From: Nitrospirae bacterium GWC2_42_7
GTDB taxonomy: Bacteria; Nitrospirota; Thermodesulfovibrionia; Thermodesulfovibrionales; UBA6898
DNA length: 10,721 nucleotides
Reading direction: 5' to 3'
Assembly: GCA_001803645.1 (NCBI GenBank)
Contig: MHDW01000214.1
Coordinates: 1 to 10,721 of the forward strand
Positions 4,802-10,721 of the stretch are shown in pieces (the first letter of the stretch is position 1; every line of letters begins with the position of its first letter). Both the position numbers and the translations under genes were made by a program. Under the pieces are notes generated by a model, which was not told the origin of the DNA, made no database searches, and saw only the letters and a program-made list of their open reading frames with translations.

Positions 4802-6193
4802 ATGACAATCATCAAGCATTTCTTTTTGTTTTTTCTATTTGTATCCATTTTCCCCCTCAGTGGTGGATGTGCGACCTTGCCGAACGTCTCCGAAAAGATT
4901 GATGAGGCACAGACTACAGATAAGCCTCGTCAGATCGTTTCGTCCAAGGGACTGATATCACCGGAAAAAAGCAAGGCTATCATGGAACGGCTGAAGCGAT
5001 CGGTTGATCCGACGGACATTCTGGAACGCCACACTGCTGTGGTGGAATCAGTAACTGAAAGCCCGCTGACAAAGGGAAACAAAGTATCCCTGCTCGCCGA
5101 TGGTCTGGCTACCTATGCCGCCATGTTCAAAGTCATAGAAAAGGCCAAAGACCATATCAACCTTGAAAGCTATATTATTGAAGATGATGAAACAGGCCGC
5201 AAATTTGCTGATCTGTTACTGCAAAAACAGGCGGAAGGTGTTCAGGTTAATGTTATCTATGACAGCGTGGGCAGTATGAATACGCCTGCTTCTTTTTTCC
5301 AGCGCCTGCGTGACAGCGGAATTAAGGTGGTCGGATTCAATCCGCTAAATCCACTGGCAGACCGCGATAAATGGGGACTGACACACCGGGACCACCGCAA
5401 GATCTTAATAGTCGACGGCAAAGTCGCCATTATCGGGGGTATCAACATCAGCAAGGTTTATTCGAGTAGTCCTTTTAAACGGAAACGGAACGAAAAGGCG
5501 ACAGTTCACTGGCGTGACACAGACATTCAAATTGAAGGCCCGGCTGTGGCTGAATTCCAGAAGCTCTTTTTTGACACCTGGCAAAAGCAGAAAGGCCCGG
5601 AACTTTCGGGGAGGAACTATTTTCCTGATCTGAAAGAACAGGGAAATGCCCTGGTGCGGGTGGTAGGCAGCACCCCGGGACAGGACAACAGGGTAACTTT
5701 TATTATGTATGTGTCTGCCATCACGTTTGCCGAGCATTCGATCCATATGACGAATTCTTATTTTATCCCAGACGACCAGATTGTTACGGCCCTTACTGAG
5801 GCTGCAGAGCGCGGTGTTGACGTAAAGATCATTCTCCCCGGAGTCACTGATTCTAAGCTGGCATTATATGCACAGAGGTATCATTATTCCGGGCTTTTGA
5901 GATCAGGAGTGAAGATATACGAGCACAGCACTTCCCTGCTTCATGCGAAGACAGCAGTAGTTGACAAGGTCTGGTCAACAGTCGGCTCAACCAACATGGA
6001 TTTCCTGAGCTTATTAAACAATGATGAAGTGAATGCGGTTATCCTGAGCAAGGAGTTTGCCATTGAAATGGAGAAAATGTTTGCCGGCGATCTTGAGAAT
6101 TCCAAACAGATCCAATGGGAGGAGTGGAAAGAAAGACCGTTGCTGCCCAGGCTCAGGGAGTGGTTCATTAATTTATTCGTCCGATGGTTATAA
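4802..6193 (+). CDS. Phospholipase D-like lipoprotein, cardiolipin synthase type
   Basis: A 463-residue member of the PLD superfamily, resembling the bacterial cardiolipin synthases that join two phospholipids (ClsB/ClsC-like). Both HKD motifs are intact: HRKILIVD with H198, K200 and D205, and HAKTAVVD with H381, K383 and D388. Each is followed by the usual GG.N or GS.N element (GGINI; GSTNMD). The N-terminus is a hydrophobic signal ending in LSGGC with C23, a plausible lipobox, so the protein is probably a periplasm-facing lipoprotein rather than one with two membrane helices as in ClsA. The ATG lacks a well-spaced Shine-Dalgarno: AGGAGA lies at 4776-4781, about 20 bases upstream. The start is chosen because it gives the full signal peptide. 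A general PLD phosphodiesterase remains possible. A gene for a second exported protein follows on the same strand. Confidence 0.9.
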   Translation: MTIIKHFFLFFLFVSIFPLSGGCATLPNVSEKIDEAQTTDKPRQIVSSKGLISPEKSKAIMERLKRSVDPTDILERHTAVVESVTESPLTKGNKVSLLADGLATYAAMFKVIEKAKDHINLESYIIEDDETGRKFADLLLQKQAEGVQVNVIYDSVGSMNTPASFFQRLRDSGIKVVGFNPLNPLADRDKWGLTHRDHRKILIVDGKVAIIGGINISKVYSSSPFKRKRNEKATVHWRDTDIQIEGPAVAEFQKLFFDTWQKQKGPELSGRNYFPDLKEQGNALVRVVGSTPGQDNRVTFIMYVSAITFAEHSIHMTNSYFIPDDQIVTALTEAAERGVDVKIILPGVTDSKLALYAQRYHYSGLLRSGVKIYEHSTSLLHAKTAVVDKVWSTVGSTNMDFLSLLNNDEVNAVILSKEFAIEMEKMFAGDLENSKQIQWEEWKERPLLPRLREWFINLFVRWL

Positions 6194-6274
6194 AACATTT
6201 CGTCAACGGTGTGAGTGAGTCATGTGAATCAGATACATATTAAGGGTATCAAAATTGAAGCTGTATCTGCGCAG

Positions 6275-6396
6275 AAAATCCCTCCTACCCTCCCTTTGCC
6301 AAAGGGAGGAATCAGTGTTCCCTCTTTGGCAAAGAGGGGTGAGGGGTATTTTAGTTCCCCTCCCTTGAGGGGAGGGGATGAAGGGGAGGGTGATTT
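6275..6396 (+). repeat. Multi-hairpin GC-rich repeat (REP/MITE-like)
   Basis: About 122 bases made of three hairpins. The first has CTCCCTTTG pairing with CAAAGGGAG; the second has CCTCTTTG pairing with CAAAGAGG; the third has CCCCTCCC pairing with GGGGAGGG around TTGA. The outer ends AAATC.CTCC and GGGTGATTT are roughly inverted. The first two hairpins together (6275-6352) also form one long imperfect palindrome running from AAAAT to ATTTT. Elements of this style occur in many copies in genomes of Nitrospirota, Deltaproteobacteria and some others; that is recalled, not checked. It lies between the PLD gene and the signal peptide of the next gene, and is open in one frame by chance. Confidence 0.8.
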
Positions 6397-6406
6397 AAGT
6401 GACTTT

Positions 6407-7348
6407 ATGAATGACCGCATTAGTAAGATCAGAAGCCATCTGAGAGCCTTACTGTTCATGGCTGCAGCAGCGATTTTTTTTTCTGCTGGTTCTGCTTCAG
6501 CTGTTGAAAAACCCCGTCAGGGCGAAGACATCCTGCTTGATACCTATCACAGTATCGAGGCCAAAATAGAGAGAAACAGCTTCGGGTTCCCTCTCTTTCT
6601 GGAGTCCTTTGAGCGAGACAACAGAGTGCATGTGGATGTATACGGTATATTCGATTATCCCTTCACCAGCGTTGCCAACGTGCTTAAGGCCCCGGCGAAC
6701 TGGTGCGATATCGTATCCCTCCATCCTAATGTCAAGACATGCACCTACAGGGAATTACCGGTCGCCTGGCAGCTGACCTTTTACATTGGCCGCAAATTCT
6801 ATCAACCACCGGAAGCCGCACGTCAGGTCATTTACCATTACAGGAAAGTTGATCAGAAGCCGGGGTATCTTGATATCACTCTCAGTGCTGACGAAGGCCC
6901 TTTCAGTACAAAGGACCACAGGATGAGGTTCGAGGCACTGCCCCTTGCTGGAGGTAAAACTTTTGTCCACGTCAGCTACGACTATAACGACAGTGCTGCG
7001 ATTCGACTCACGGAAAAGGTCTATTTTGCGACACTCGGCCGTGGCAAGGTTGGGTTCACTGTAACCGGAACAGACAAAAACAACAAACCAGTTTATATCG
7101 GCGGGTCTCGTGGTGCAGTTGAGCGTAATGCTGTCCGGTACTATTTCGCTATCCAGTCCTTCATGAATACAATGCGCTATCCAGAGGGAAGCCGTTTCAG
7201 CATGAGGATCAGCGAGTGGTACGATCTTACGACCCGCTACAGGACACAGCTCTTTGAGATGGAAAAAAAAGACTACCTCACACTAAAGACAAAAGAGCAC
7301 AAGAACCAGGTGATACTCCAGTGGCGGATTGGGATGGGGTTGCAATGA
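6407..7348 (+). CDS. Exported protein of unknown function, possibly SRPBCC/START-like
   Basis: A 313-residue protein with a good Sec signal peptide: basic residues at 4-13, a hydrophobic core at about 14-28, and ASA before V33 as a likely cleavage site. The mature part includes VDVYGIFDYPF, then ANWCDIVSLHPNVKTC, alternating strand-like stretches and a helical end. This pattern brings a START/SRPBCC lipid-binding fold to mind, but I cannot name a family. The frame is open back to an ATG at 6215, but those 64 extra residues are only the translated hairpin repeat, so I place the start at 6407. The repeat's GGGGAGGG (6383-6390) is the nearest purine-rich sequence and lies 16 bases away, too far for a normal ribosome site. 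The gene follows the PLD-like lipoprotein gene and may be co-transcribed with it. The pairing suggests a shared role at the membrane or in the periplasm, which is inference. Confidence 0.8.
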   Translation: MNDRISKIRSHLRALLFMAAAAIFFSAGSASAVEKPRQGEDILLDTYHSIEAKIERNSFGFPLFLESFERDNRVHVDVYGIFDYPFTSVANVLKAPANWCDIVSLHPNVKTCTYRELPVAWQLTFYIGRKFYQPPEAARQVIYHYRKVDQKPGYLDITLSADEGPFSTKDHRMRFEALPLAGGKTFVHVSYDYNDSAAIRLTEKVYFATLGRGKVGFTVTGTDKNNKPVYIGGSRGAVERNAVRYYFAIQSFMNTMRYPEGSRFSMRISEWYDLTTRYRTQLFEMEKKDYLTLKTKEHKNQVILQWRIGMGLQ

Positions 7349-7425
7349 GTGTTAGGACACTACAACCCTGCAGCACTGCACCCGGCATCAAAGAAAGCTT
7401 ATTAAGGTATTAAGGTAAGTCCAGA

Positions 7426-7454
7426 TTGACAAGCCATACGTTTTTTGATATAAA
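7426..7454 (+). promoter_or_regulatory. Sigma70-type promoter P1 of the kai cluster
   Basis: A perfect -35 TTGACA at 7426-7431, a 17-base spacer and TATAAA at 7449-7454, eleven of twelve consensus positions. Transcription would start near 7461, about 200 bases before kaiC, so the PAS remnant would be in the leader. The stretch 7349-7425, just upstream, holds nothing else I can name. Confidence 0.72.
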
Positions 7455-7473
7455 GACAAGTATAGATTATAAT
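7445..7473 (+). promoter_or_regulatory. Overlapping sigma70-type promoter P2 of the kai cluster
   Basis: TTGATA at 7445-7450, a 17-base spacer and a perfect TATAAT at 7468-7473, again eleven of twelve consensus positions. Its -35 overlaps the -10 of P1, so the two would compete for polymerase. Its start, near 7480, would fall after the ATG at 7472, so the transcript would carry the PAS remnant without that start codon. Confidence 0.6.
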
Positions 7474-7664
7474 GACAAAACACAAAAGGGCAACTTATAA
7501 AGGAATCAGCAGAACTGCAGCAGCCTATTATAGAATTGCAAGCAAGGGAAACTGGGATCAGGCAGACAGATGAGGCGCTAAAGGTATCGGAAATCCGTTG
7601 CAGGAGGCTCTTTGAAACTGCTCAGGACGGGATATTACTTCTCGATAAAGAAGGAGACAACTAA
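7472..7664 (+). pseudogene. Remnant of a PAS sensor gene, N-terminal part, frameshifted
   Basis: In the frame ending at the TAA of 7662-7664, the 62 codons from 7476 read like the start of a PAS sensor kinase. KGQLIKESAEL is followed by a heptad-like linker with TDEALKVSE, then RRLFETAQDGILLLD, the first strand of a PAS domain, and a stop after EGDN. No ATG lies in this frame. An ATG at 7472 is in another frame and gives MTKHK before diverging; dropping one A from the run at 7483-7486 would join the two. This points to a decayed gene with a frameshift near its start and loss of everything after the first PAS strand. The TAA overlaps the kaiC ATG (TAATG), so it could still be translated from a weak start (TTG at 7536) and couple to kaiC. 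It is unlike the PAS protein encoded at the end of the window. Confidence 0.7.
7651..7656 (+). promoter_or_regulatory. Ribosome binding site of kaiC inside the PAS remnant
   Basis: AAGGAG seven bases before the ATG at 7664. It lies within the last codons of the PAS remnant and fixes the kaiC start. Confidence 0.8.
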
Positions 7665-9394
7665 TGACCAAAACAAAAGGCAACACGCATCTATCCGGCG
7701 CAACATTGATCAAATCCCCAACAGGAATCACAGGACTTGATGAGGTAACAGGCGGAGGACTTCCGAAAGGCAGACCCACTCTTATCGCAGGATCTGCTGG
7801 GTCCGGTAAGACTGTCTTTGCTATGGAATTCCTTGTAAACGGCGTGACAAAATTTAACGAGACAGGCGTGTTCGTCTCTTTCGAGGAGCCTGTCGAAGAC
7901 CTCACGAAGAACTTTGCTTCCCTTGGGTATAACCTGAATCGGTTTTCGGACAACAAAAAAATGATAATAGATTACATACATATCGAGCGTTCCGAGATCG
8001 AGGTGACCGGCGAGTATGATCTCGAAGGCCTCTTTGTCAGGCTTGGACACATGGTCGATTCGATCGGAGCAAAGAGGATAGTGCTTGACACAATTGAGTC
8101 TCTGTTCGGCGCACTGCCGAATGAAGGTATCTTAAGGGCGGAGATCCGCAGACTTTTTCGCTGGCTGAAATTAAAGGGCCTTACCGCCATTATTACCGGC
8201 GAAAAAGGCGACGGCATGATTACAAGGCACGGGCTTGAAGAGTATGTCTCCGACTGTGTCATATTCCTCGACCATCTCGTATTCGAACAAGTCGCAACGC
8301 GCAGGCTCCGGATCATAAAATACAGGGGCTCATCTCACGGTACAAACGAATATCCCTTCCTGATCGATAAGACGGGCATATCGGTCCTGCCGGTCACATC
8401 CCTTGAACTTATCCACAAGGCCACATCAGAAAGGATCTCTACCGGCATACCCCGCCTGGATACCATGTTCGAAGGAAAAGGCTATTACCGGGGCAGCAGT
8501 ATCCTCGTATCCGGAACAGCAGGCACAGGGAAATCGAGCGTAGCGGCAAAATTCGCTGAATCAGCATGTCAAAGGGGAGAGCGCTGCCTCTATCTTGCAT
8601 TTGAGGAATCCGAAAGCCAGATCATCCGCAATATGCGATCGATCGGCATCAACCTGGAACCATGGGTGAAAAAGGGACTTCTGAAATTCCATGCGTCCAG
8701 GCCGACCTTCTGCGGTCTTGAAATGCACTTGGTGCAGATACACAATCTGGTCAGCAGTTTCAACCCGAGCGTAGTTATCTTCGATCCCATAACCACTATG
8801 ATGTCAATCGGCAGTGACAACACGGTAAAGTCAATGCTGACACGCCTTCTGGATTACCTCAAGATGAAAAAGCTGGTCACGACCCTCTTTACCAACCTGT
8901 CGCATAACGAAGACCTCGAAAAAACAACGATGGCCGTTTCGTCGTTGATGGACACGTGGATACTCCTGAGAGACATCGAAATAGGGGGAGAGCGCAACCG
9001 CGGCTTGTATGTCTTGAAGGCCCGTGGTATCGGCCATTCCAATCAAATCCGGGAGTTCCTGCTCACAAAAGAGGGAATTGATGTGCGTGACGTTTATCTC
9101 GGACAGGATAAAGTCCTGACCGGCTCTGCGCGGCTTGCCCAGGAGGCTGAGGAAAAAGCCGAGGGCCTTATTCGCAGGCAGGAAACACAATGGAAGCAGC
9201 GCGAGCTTGAACGCAAACGGGAGACGATTGAATCCCAGATAAAAGTCCTTCGTTCTCAATATGAGTCGGAGGAAGAGGAACTTCGGATCTCTATACATCA
9301 GGCAAAATTGATTGAAGAAACGATATCCAGGGCCACGAGGGAGATGGCAAAATCCAGGAAGGCAGACGTCATTAAACCGGCTAAAAGAAAATAA
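7664..9394 (+). CDS. kaiC: KaiC homologue: double-domain RecA-like ATPase/autokinase with C-terminal coiled coil
   Basis: A 576-residue protein with two KaiC/RecA domains. CI has the P-loop GSAGSGKT at 43-50, the EE pair E74/E75 and Walker B aspartate D142. CII has GTAGTGKS at 284-291, E314/E315 and D374. In cyanobacterial KaiC the CI domain is the slow ATPase that recruits KaiB, and CII autophosphorylates on Ser431/Thr432. Aligned on the following DT.ILL block, this protein has S426 and S427 there, and T421 at the place of Thr426, so autokinase activity is expected. The segment ERSEIEVTGEYDL (108-120) lines up with the KaiB-binding loop of CI. After about residue 485 comes a charged coiled coil of roughly 80 residues and a basic end, in place of the KaiA-binding tail. 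The start is set by AAGGAG and the TAATG overlap. kaiB1 begins 21 bases after the stop. The role could be timing or a stress switch; a circadian function is not shown by sequence. Confidence 0.95.
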   Translation: MTKTKGNTHLSGATLIKSPTGITGLDEVTGGGLPKGRPTLIAGSAGSGKTVFAMEFLVNGVTKFNETGVFVSFEEPVEDLTKNFASLGYNLNRFSDNKKMIIDYIHIERSEIEVTGEYDLEGLFVRLGHMVDSIGAKRIVLDTIESLFGALPNEGILRAEIRRLFRWLKLKGLTAIITGEKGDGMITRHGLEEYVSDCVIFLDHLVFEQVATRRLRIIKYRGSSHGTNEYPFLIDKTGISVLPVTSLELIHKATSERISTGIPRLDTMFEGKGYYRGSSILVSGTAGTGKSSVAAKFAESACQRGERCLYLAFEESESQIIRNMRSIGINLEPWVKKGLLKFHASRPTFCGLEMHLVQIHNLVSSFNPSVVIFDPITTMMSIGSDNTVKSMLTRLLDYLKMKKLVTTLFTNLSHNEDLEKTTMAVSSLMDTWILLRDIEIGGERNRGLYVLKARGIGHSNQIREFLLTKEGIDVRDVYLGQDKVLTGSARLAQEAEEKAEGLIRRQETQWKQRELERKRETIESQIKVLRSQYESEEEELRISIHQAKLIEETISRATREMAKSRKADVIKPAKRK

Positions 9395-9415
9395 TAGCGG
9401 GAGGAACATATTGTT

Positions 9416-9790
9416 ATGGGAACTGAAGATAAAAAAAGGAAGGCTGGCAGCAAGACAAAAGCCTTAAAAGCAACTGCCAAGACACATGGGACAGCAGAAG
9501 TGAAATTGCCAAAGGAAATTTGGGATTTGATGCTTTACGTTGCGGGCCAGACCCCAAAATCCCTCACAGCCTTTGCCAACCTAAAGAAAATCTGTGAGAA
9601 GCATCTTGAGGGCAAGTACCGCCTCGAGGTGATTGATCTTTTGAAAAACCCTCAGCTCGCCCGCGGTGACCAGATTCTTGCAATACCGACACTGGTGAGG
9701 AAGCTTCCCGAGCCTATAAAAAAGATAATAGGTGACCTTTCAAATATGGAACGCGTCCTGGTGGGCCTGGATCTACGCCCGGCGGATTAA
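9416..9790 (+). CDS. kaiB: KaiB homologue 1, with lysine-rich N-terminal extension
   Basis: A 124-residue KaiB-family protein with a thioredoxin-like fold; KaiB in its rare fold-switched form binds the KaiC CI ring. The core from about residue 35 follows cyanobacterial KaiB closely: [10 protein letters not shown] at 40-49, [11 protein letters not shown] at 72-82, IPTL at 90-93 and IIGDLSN...VLVGLDL at 104-120. The Gly and Asp of IIGDLS, positions known to control fold switching in KaiB, are kept. The first 30 residues carry eight lysines and one arginine, an extension cyanobacterial KaiB lacks. GGGAGGA at 9399-9405, ten bases before the ATG, supports the start. The gene is second in the kaiC cluster; kaiB2 begins 16 bases after the stop. 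Confidence 0.94.
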
Positions 9791-9806
9791 GGCAAGGAGA
9801 ACAAAT

Positions 9807-10148
9807 ATGGAGAAAAAAGCATTGAAAGATGAATTAAAGGCATTGGGAAAAAAGATCAAGGCCTCTCCGGGAAAGAGGTATGTTTTAAGCCTTTATATCG
9901 CAGGAGCAACGCCTAAGTCCACCCGTGCAATTATGAATATCAAAAAAATCTGTGAAGAATACCTTATGGGCAGATATGAGCTTGAGGTTGTAGACATATA
10001 CCAGCAACCTGAGCTTGTAAAGGAGGAACAAATTATTGCTATCCCCACACTTCTAAAAAAACTTCCACTCCCTTTACGGAAATTCATAGGCGATATGTCA
10101 AAGACAGAAAAGATCCTTGTGGGTCTGGATATAAAGACAAGGAAATGA
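9807..10148 (+). CDS. kaiB: KaiB homologue 2
   Basis: A 113-residue KaiB-family protein. The core has [10 protein letters not shown] at 29-38, [10 protein letters not shown] at 61-70, IPTL at 79-82 and FIGDMS...ILVGLDI at 93-109. A hand count over 85 ungapped positions gives 47 identities (about 55%) with the first KaiB, so it is a diverged paralogue, not a recent copy. It departs from the cyanobacterial pattern where KaiB1 keeps it (YQQPEL instead of LKNPQL), so it may bind KaiC differently or bind another partner. The frame is open back to 9732 inside kaiB1, but AAGGAGA at 9794-9800 places the start at 9807. The PAS protein gene begins 30 bases after the stop, in the same direction. Confidence 0.93.
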
Positions 10149-10178
10149 ATAAACCCCCTATGCGATTTAAGAAGGAAG

Positions 10179-10721
10179 ATGGCGAAAAAGAATAAATCTG
10201 TTAAGCAACTATTGGAAGAGAACCAAACCCTTCGGACACAACTTGAAGAGTTAGAGGAGACTGTACGTGCCATCCGGTCCGGAGAGGTTGATGCCCTGGT
10301 TGTTTTAGGCCCTGAGGGCGAGCAGGTTTACACCCTGAAAAGCGCGGAACAACCTTACCGTGTTCTTGTCGAAACAATGAACGAGGGAACAAGCACTGTA
10401 GCTCCCGATGGCACCATACTTTATAGCAATAACCGTCTTACAGCCATGCTCAAAATGCCGCTTGAACAGGTCATAGGGACCTCAATACGTCTCTACATTA
10501 CAGGGTCAGATCTTCTGATATTCGATGACCTTTTGAAAAAAGGCCTGCAGACTGATTGCCAGGGAGAAGTGTCCCTAAAGACAAGGGAAGGGACTTTGCC
10601 GGTTCAGCTTTCTCTGAGCCCTGTGCGCAGTGAAGGAATGGATTGTACAGTAATAGTAATAACAGATTTGACTGAACAAAAAAAGGCCGAAGAGGCTTTG
10701 CGCAGAACTTCAGAGACTTTG
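10179..10721 (+). CDS. PAS-domain sensor protein, probably a histidine kinase (3' end outside window)
   Basis: An open frame of 181 residues with no stop before the window ends. It starts with a coiled coil at about 5-34 and AIRSGEVDALVV at 31-42, a lead-in often seen before PAS domains of sensor kinases. A PAS domain spans about 58-165, with NEGTSTVAPDGTILYSNNR near its start. It closes with ITDLTEQKKAEEALR (161-175), the standard PAS-to-linker junction. No membrane segment is visible, so the protein is probably cytoplasmic. The kinase domain itself is not in the window, so histidine kinase is an inference from domain habit and from the sensor kinases commonly next to kaiBC. The purine-rich AAGAAGGAAG before the ATG gives a ribosome site with very short spacing. 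It probably belongs to the kai operon. Confidence 0.82.
   Translation, partial: MAKKNKSVKQLLEENQTLRTQLEELEETVRAIRSGEVDALVVLGPEGEQVYTLKSAEQPYRVLVETMNEGTSTVAPDGTILYSNNRLTAMLKMPLEQVIGTSIRLYITGSDLLIFDDLLKKGLQTDCQGEVSLKTREGTLPVQLSLSPVRSEGMDCTVIVITDLTEQKKAEEALRRTSETL

Follow-up and report, generated by a model that had tools for sequence, protein, structure and literature searches.

The DNA analysed here, called the window, is a stretch of 10,721 nucleotides that makes up the entire contig MHDW01000214.1 (C214) of the Nitrospirae bacterium GWC2_42_7 assembly, which comprises 238 contigs and is 70.8% complete. Towards its end it carries kaiC, two kaiB genes and the beginning of a gene with a PAS domain, four open frames on the same strand separated by gaps of exactly 21, 16 and 30 bases, as a preliminary description of this DNA had reported (Table 1). 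Judged from its sequence, the window holds a real variant of the KaiC2 operon that recurs in other genomes and combines two classes of KaiB with a modular, Kai-linked output protein. The preliminary description spoke of a complete KaiC, two KaiBs and a PAS sensor. Pfam searches bear this out for KaiC and the KaiBs, but the PAS gene is incomplete: the contig ends after 181 of its codons, and its output end is therefore unreadable. Two strong promoters had also been placed upstream of the operon. Scanning for sigma-70-like sites, we found one good site on the plus strand (11/12) and one on the minus strand (10/12), and the four sites observed within 7340-10721 correspond to chance (mean 3.7, standard deviation 1.9). 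The promoters were therefore dismissed as evidence for an operon. Loci and genomes used for comparison carry L and G numbers below.

Table 1. Features of the kai locus; positions count from the first nucleotide of the window.
Feature	Position	Strand	Remarks
Sigma-70-like promoter site (TTGATA-17-TATAAT)	7445..7473	+	promoter scan; number of sites not above chance
Remnant of a PAS-type sensor gene	7476..7664	+	open frame; TAA overlaps the kaiC ATG (TAATG)
kaiC, 576 aa	7664..9394	+	CI and CII ATPase domains, Ser-Ser (AVSSLMDT), 89-residue coiled-coil-like tail
kaiB1, 124 aa, first-position class	9416..9790	+	VAGQTPKS ... AIPTLV
kaiB2, 113 aa, second-position class	9807..10148	+	DIYQQP ... LPLPLRKF
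Output gene, first 181 codons	10179..10721	+	N-terminal Kai-linked module, then PAS; cut by contig end; sigma-54 activator suggested by relatives
Kai-linked N-terminal module of the output gene	10206..10376	+	no Pfam match

KaiC matches PF06745 in two stretches (357.9 bits), and both domains possess a Walker A motif and a catalytic glutamate (GSAGSGKT/FEEP and GTAGTGKS/FEESE). It also reaches the broad KaiC model NF006799 (729.7 against a cut-off of 408). Its tail, from position 488 on, aligns with the KaiC of Cereibacter up to residue 551. The nearest matches in the Protein Data Bank, 8dba and 8fwi, align over residues 16 to 551 with the tail included; we take them to be the Cereibacter sphaeroides KaiC of PMC10076222, and the match between the KaiB of 8fwj and that of the Cereibacter locus (L074) agrees with this. 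KaiC2 proteins are described as carrying two serines at the phosphosites, and a tail of about 50 extra residues, found predominantly in KaiC2, permits the Cereibacter KaiC to autophosphorylate without KaiA (PMC5520375, PMC10076222). On its two RecA/KaiC domains, its Ser-Ser pair and its long tail, we assign the KaiC of the window to the KaiC2 kind.

We compared the phosphosites in 41 aligned KaiCs. All 13 from kaiB-first loci are Ser-Thr, and the remaining 28 comprise 25 Ser-Ser, two Thr-Ser (L041, L042) and one Ser-Thr protein (L040). The last belongs to Candidatus Magnetocorallium paracelense XS-1 (G400), a member of the Nitrospirota (PMC10278575). L041 and L042 (G253, same family), with the motif VTSLMDT, are two copies of the four-gene operon in one genome, and their output kinases are differently built.

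The KaiA family PF07688, whose profile does detect Synechococcus elongatus as a positive control, had no match in any of 18 chosen genomes, the window's own 70.8%-complete genome included, its reach to divergent KaiA3 being unchecked. This agrees with the earlier remark that kaiA is missing here. The general rule given with it, that kaiBC clusters outside cyanobacteria lack kaiA, does not strictly hold: in Rhodospirillum rubrum a kaiA3 orthologue adjoins one kaiBC pair (PMC10931921).

Recurrence of the operon and the two KaiB classes

To assess how often the arrangement occurs, we searched 395 genomes of the phylum with PF07689. KaiB was detected in 47 of them, in 36 above the cut-off. Two KaiB matches on the same strand with starts at most 400 bases apart were considered a tandem pair. 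With these parameters 17 pairs were found in 16 genomes, the window's counted and G253 holding two. The other 16 loci display the order kaiC, kaiB, kaiB and a gene with the N-terminal module and PAS domain described below, save one that lacks KaiC (G091); the operons of G063, G363 and G033 are cut into by contig ends. Outside the phylum, an assembly from the Bacteroidota (L036) and a plasmid of Pararhizobium show the same gene order. A second sample, 398 genomes from the phylum of G399 (a record titled Gammaproteobacteria), gave a KaiB match in 37 genomes and a tandem pair in three, with starts 302-406 bases apart. The tandem arrangement is thus recurrent, and it is commoner in the Nitrospirota sample. 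The objection that it might be unique to this one assembly, raised in the preliminary description, is ruled out because the arrangement recurs. Several genomes of the second sample hold another two-KaiB arrangement, kaiB-kaiC-kaiB, in which two KaiB matches lie about 2 kb apart on one strand (G581:C73, G426:C178, G553:C333, G477:C1 and G501:C26; loci L118, L119, L122, L123 and L117).

Both KaiBs of the window match PF07689 almost end to end (95.8 bits for KaiB1 and 94.5 for KaiB2 against a gathering cut-off of 27; profile positions 2-81 and 2-82 of 82). In a tree of 62 KaiB domains over 85 columns, a branch with support 99/96 separates all 19 first-position from all 19 second-position KaiBs. 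The second-position KaiBs form a clade (97/86) together with four single KaiBs; one of these, L058, starts close to the end of its contig, which may account for the missing partner. Hidden Markov models (HMMs) built for the two classes assigned 38 of 38 KaiBs correctly when each was left out in turn. They also placed the three second-sample pairs, which lay outside the training set, as B1 followed by B2, one B2 by only 5 bits (138 vs 133). All 22 pairs, which represent at least three phyla, thus keep the B1-then-B2 order. KaiBs of kaiB-first loci score nearly equally under both models, and the two classes thus belong to kaiC-first operons. Mean identity is 70% among B1s, 57% among B2s and 49% between B1 and B2 of the same genome. 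The classes are marked, among other columns, by VAG vs VTG, by L vs Y in DLL/DIY and by I/V vs A before PTL, and they have no residue in common at columns 8, 14 and 40.

Some observations weigh against so clean a division. Of these three marking columns, the KaiB2 of the window carries the class residue only at DIY; the first has A and the last I instead. The tree program flagged long branches, including L072_B2 and L050_B2, and many forks of the tree are unresolved because it rests on only 85 columns. Nevertheless, the tree and the HMM classes uphold the earlier suggestion that the two KaiBs differ in kind, and the tree and the identities led us to reject a recent tandem duplication. Since the same gene set recurs elsewhere, the pair seems to be a long-standing partnership of KaiBs with distinct functions and not the product of a local duplication. 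A switch with two alternative KaiB inputs or outputs, as the preliminary description suggested, may still apply.

Next, we considered what KaiB2 might do. The operon could be a stress-response or redox module in which KaiB2, or both KaiBs, act as thioredoxin-fold adaptors and KaiC phosphorylation serves as a switch, as in Legionella, whose KaiB was crystallised in the fold-switched state and is tied to stress, not rhythms (PMC10808063). The substitutions I68R/V83D/N84A are described as flipping the Cereibacter KaiB to the fold-switched state. We mapped these residues by letter to alignment columns 65, 80 and 81, the numbering of the paper being one off from that of the genome. At the V83 place (column 80), 7 of 19 tandem KaiB2s, from three groups, have H, R or E, compared with 0 of 19 KaiB1s, which would suit such adaptors. 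The KaiB2 of the window is not among the seven. It has V at the position of V83 and G at that of N84, and was therefore rejected as a candidate for a protein locked in the fold-switched state. Its structure model has low confidence (mean predicted local distance difference test score 58.2, below 50 over residues 68-86 and 92-105), and its C-terminal strand appears ground-state-like, if anything, the model being too uncertain for use. KaiB1, moreover, clusters with the fold-switching Cereibacter KaiB. A stress-response module is thus possible but unlikely.

A second alternative is that KaiB2 is a redundant or dosage copy without a separate role, the pair being retained by chance or for the amount of protein. 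Either KaiB can indeed be absent: operons exist with KaiB1-class proteins only (L074, L075, L076, L114) and with KaiB2-class proteins only (L057, L038). However, the many class-marking columns and the order kept in every pair make mere redundancy improbable. The KaiC tree (39 rows; L039 and L040 dropped) bears on the origin of the single-KaiB operons. It splits the kaiB-first KaiCs from the rest (100/99), and single-KaiB1 operons such as that of Cereibacter adjoin the tandem-bearing Pararhizobium, although the support of 88/83 is not strong. A clade restricted to tandem operons was rejected (approximately unbiased test, p = 0.0001, counting as tandem L035, whose contig ends inside kaiC), which favours losses of one KaiB or transfers. 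Together with the single KaiB2 clade, this fits an old two-KaiB operon with later loss of either KaiB, and transfers of KaiB2 are a possible alternative to losses.

The output gene and its exchanged ends

The fourth gene begins with a module of 57 residues (residues 10-66) ahead of PAS, with the pattern L..RL.EAEETL.AIR.G.VDALVV...G.QVYTL.GA..PYR; the PAS match begins at residue 60. A profile of the module gave 25 matches in 21 of the 395 genomes. Of these, 21 have a KaiB match no more than 0.4 kb away, and the module is present at all 17 tandem pairs. In the second sample, where 30 loci from 30 of the 37 KaiB genomes were checked, the module was detected at all nine kaiC-first loci, in one case only weakly (34 bits). 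The kaiB-first loci stop within kaiC or shortly after it and are uninformative. We then scanned the domains of 22 Kai-linked module proteins, leaving out the 241-aa gene of L036 and the truncated genes of L044 and L046. Seven end in a histidine kinase/ATPase domain, ten in a kinase with a receiver and one in an HWE kinase; one ends in GGDEF-EAL, two are sigma-54 activators, and in one only PAS and GAF domains were detected. As the module is tied to kai genes across these differing outputs, it is likely the docking part of the output protein. Against a strict tie to Kai stand the four module matches without an adjoining KaiB: two in G063, one in G147 and one in G363, where it lies at the beginning of a contig. 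G147 has neither a KaiB match nor a KaiC match at E 1e-8, and the match in G363 leads into GGDEF-EAL and may continue the kai operon of that genome. The module provides a sequence handle for locating the output proteins of non-cyanobacterial Kai systems.

To predict the missing end of the window's gene we turned to its nearest relatives with a readable fourth gene among the fetched loci, L039 and L057; the contig of L035 stops inside kaiC. L039, on a 5.6-kb contig, has matching stretches of DNA 84-92% identical to the window. Past the part shared with the window's PAS gene, its fourth gene carries PF00158, an AAA lid and HTH_8 in one frame. The KaiC of L057 is sister to those of the window and L035 (100/99), and its unbroken fourth gene carries the module, PAS, PF00158 with GETGTGKE and GAFTGA, and HTH_8. 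In addition, the window's own genome encodes sigma-54 (rpoN). Because both relatives carry such ends, the output gene of the window most likely encodes a sigma-54 activator. Several points count against this assignment. The sigma-54 end lies outside the sequence of the window, and searching the genome with an L039 stretch for the rest of the gene returned only a 38-base match. Within L039 itself, runs of N separate the PAS part from the sigma-54 end and hide most of the PAS domain. Matches to the sigma-54 promoter pattern (up to three mismatches) were uninformative, with 54 in the window and 49 expected. That the cut gene instead encodes a histidine kinase would agree with the 18 of 22 scanned module proteins ending in a histidine kinase of some kind, but it is quite improbable, given that the nearest fetched DNA copy (L039) and the nearest KaiC beyond the window-L035 pair (L057) both go with sigma-54 activators. 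A kinase output thus seems unlikely in this lineage, for which the PAS kinase of the preliminary description is probably wrong. The L039 record (MGXK01000147.1) is titled Gammaproteobacteria, yet its operon matches that of a Nitrospirota assembly at 84-92% DNA identity, which points to either a misbinned contig or a recent transfer.

A proposed KaiA-independent timer

We propose that the four genes form a KaiA-independent timer operon of the KaiC2 type with a dedicated output protein, in which KaiB1 would be the clock partner and KaiB2 may be tied to output. We give this reading a probability of roughly 0.55. KaiC would autophosphorylate on two serines without KaiA, the coiled-coil tail replacing KaiA's role. 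KaiB1, placed by the tree with the KaiB studied in Cereibacter, would bind KaiC and drive the reset. KaiB2, which represents a second, older class, would most likely help convey to the fourth protein which state the KaiC-KaiB complex is in, and this is the weakest step. The N-terminal module of the fourth protein would dock, and its exchangeable tail would decide how the signal is used, here most likely for sigma-54-dependent transcription. KaiA-free autophosphorylation and the action of KaiB are carried over from Cereibacter by type; there, KaiB reportedly drives ATP use and dephosphorylation. In model systems, one KaiB serves both the clock and the output link.

The link of KaiB2 to output is suggested by genomes that lack KaiC. 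G208 (95% complete) and G091 (99% complete) have KaiB2 and the module gene in overlapping frames, but a search at E 1e-8 gave no KaiC in either. The G208 stretch contains no KaiB1, and the KaiB1 of G091 is missing its start. The two KaiB2s are 68% identical, with saturated silent sites and a ratio of nonsynonymous to synonymous differences (pN/pS) of 0.28, as expected if selection kept them at least part of the time. Both genomes (loci L056 in G091 and L059/L116 in G208) carry the genus label g105, as do G088, G258 and G382, which have all four genes, and G147, which has only a module-bearing kinase.

A number of findings speak against the proposed timer. In the KaiC-less genomes, KaiB2 may simply be the last gene left in decay. 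Operons with KaiB1 alone, such as that of Cereibacter, retain the module gene, and coupling therefore does not depend on KaiB2 in every system. Nor do all KaiCs of such operons have the tail, which is missing in the four tandem operons L052-L055. Finally, the circadian equivalog models are missed, TIGR02655 by KaiC (349.6 against 546.25) and TIGR02654/NF006798 by both KaiBs (KaiB1 103.2 and KaiB2 95.4 against a cut-off of 145.3; 109.2 and 98.3 against 110).

A wider evolutionary picture is tentative and, on balance, doubtful. An ancestral KaiC2 operon may have had two KaiBs, KaiB1 resetting KaiC and KaiB2 carrying its state to a protein with a Kai-specific docking module and swapped ends, such as kinases, cyclic di-GMP enzymes and sigma-54 activators. 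One-KaiB systems like that of Cereibacter would then be reduced, and the timer of the window's lineage would act on sigma-54 promoters directly, with no phosphorelay in between. If true, a sigma-54 output would link a Kai timer to transcription in a single step. An operon family with the two KaiB classes side by side also provides a route to separating clock and output roles using purified proteins.

Upstream region and comparison with known systems

Immediately ahead of kaiC, 188 bases (7476-7663) contain what is left of another PAS-type gene, which the preliminary description had overlooked; its translation reads ALKVSEIRCRRLFETAQDGILLLDKEGDN*. Because the related DNA of L035 (76% match over 7427-7599) has frames broken by stops, the remnant looks like a decayed sensor gene. 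Further upstream lie a cardiolipin synthase-like phospholipase D (PLD) protein (4802-6193) and a 377-aa protein (6215-7348) that matches neither Pfam nor NCBIfam models. When eight upstream genes were sought at comparison loci, matches were found only for the AI-2E transporter (22%, L072) and for the 377-aa gene (43%, near kaiC in L035). A dispersed repeat at 6250-6400 has at least 44 listed matches in the genome of the window, two of them being the stretch itself, with 40 of 127 candidates scored. Since this repeat falls within the opening codons of the 377-aa frame, the true start is probably downstream of the GTG at 6215. A 66-aa frame at 739-939 is presumably a cold-shock protein.

The claim of novelty made earlier holds in part. 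The operon is a variant of the KaiC2 type, which had been studied before in Cereibacter and Rhodopseudomonas. Among open-access texts we found no published tandem KaiB classes and no sigma-54 Kai output; the search did not cover the figures of PMC3164672, which may draw two kaiB genes. According to the text of that 2011 paper, a histidine kinase or a GGDEF/EAL protein lies directly downstream of kaiC or kaiB in nearly every non-cyanobacterial cluster that it assigns to its first group.

The cyanobacterial KaiABC/SasA system has the KaiC and KaiB families in common with the window's operon. The latter differs in having no KaiA match, kaiC before kaiB, Ser-Ser instead of Ser-Thr phosphosites, and no SasA-type KaiB-like domain in the 181 readable residues of the output protein. 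The kaiC-kaiB-PAS histidine kinase cluster of Rhodopseudomonas palustris differs by its histidine kinase output and by the single KaiB of the described cluster (PMC4794148). Closer is the KaiBC system on plasmid pB of Cereibacter (Rhodobacter) sphaeroides (L074, PMC10076222), which likewise has the order kaiC-kaiB-output, a Ser-Ser KaiC and a long coiled-coil tail. Its KaiB falls on the KaiB1 side of the tree, and its output protein shares the N-terminal module of the window. Its KaiC is described as autophosphorylating independently of KaiA (PMC10076222), as would be expected of the window's KaiC by type. However, its operon has a single KaiB, and its output is an HWE histidine kinase. Plasmid p3 of Pararhizobium qamdonense (L072), an alphaproteobacterium, likewise combines kaiC, KaiBs in B1-B2 order and a module-bearing output gene, and its record names two KaiBs; its output, in contrast, is a histidine kinase with a receiver domain.

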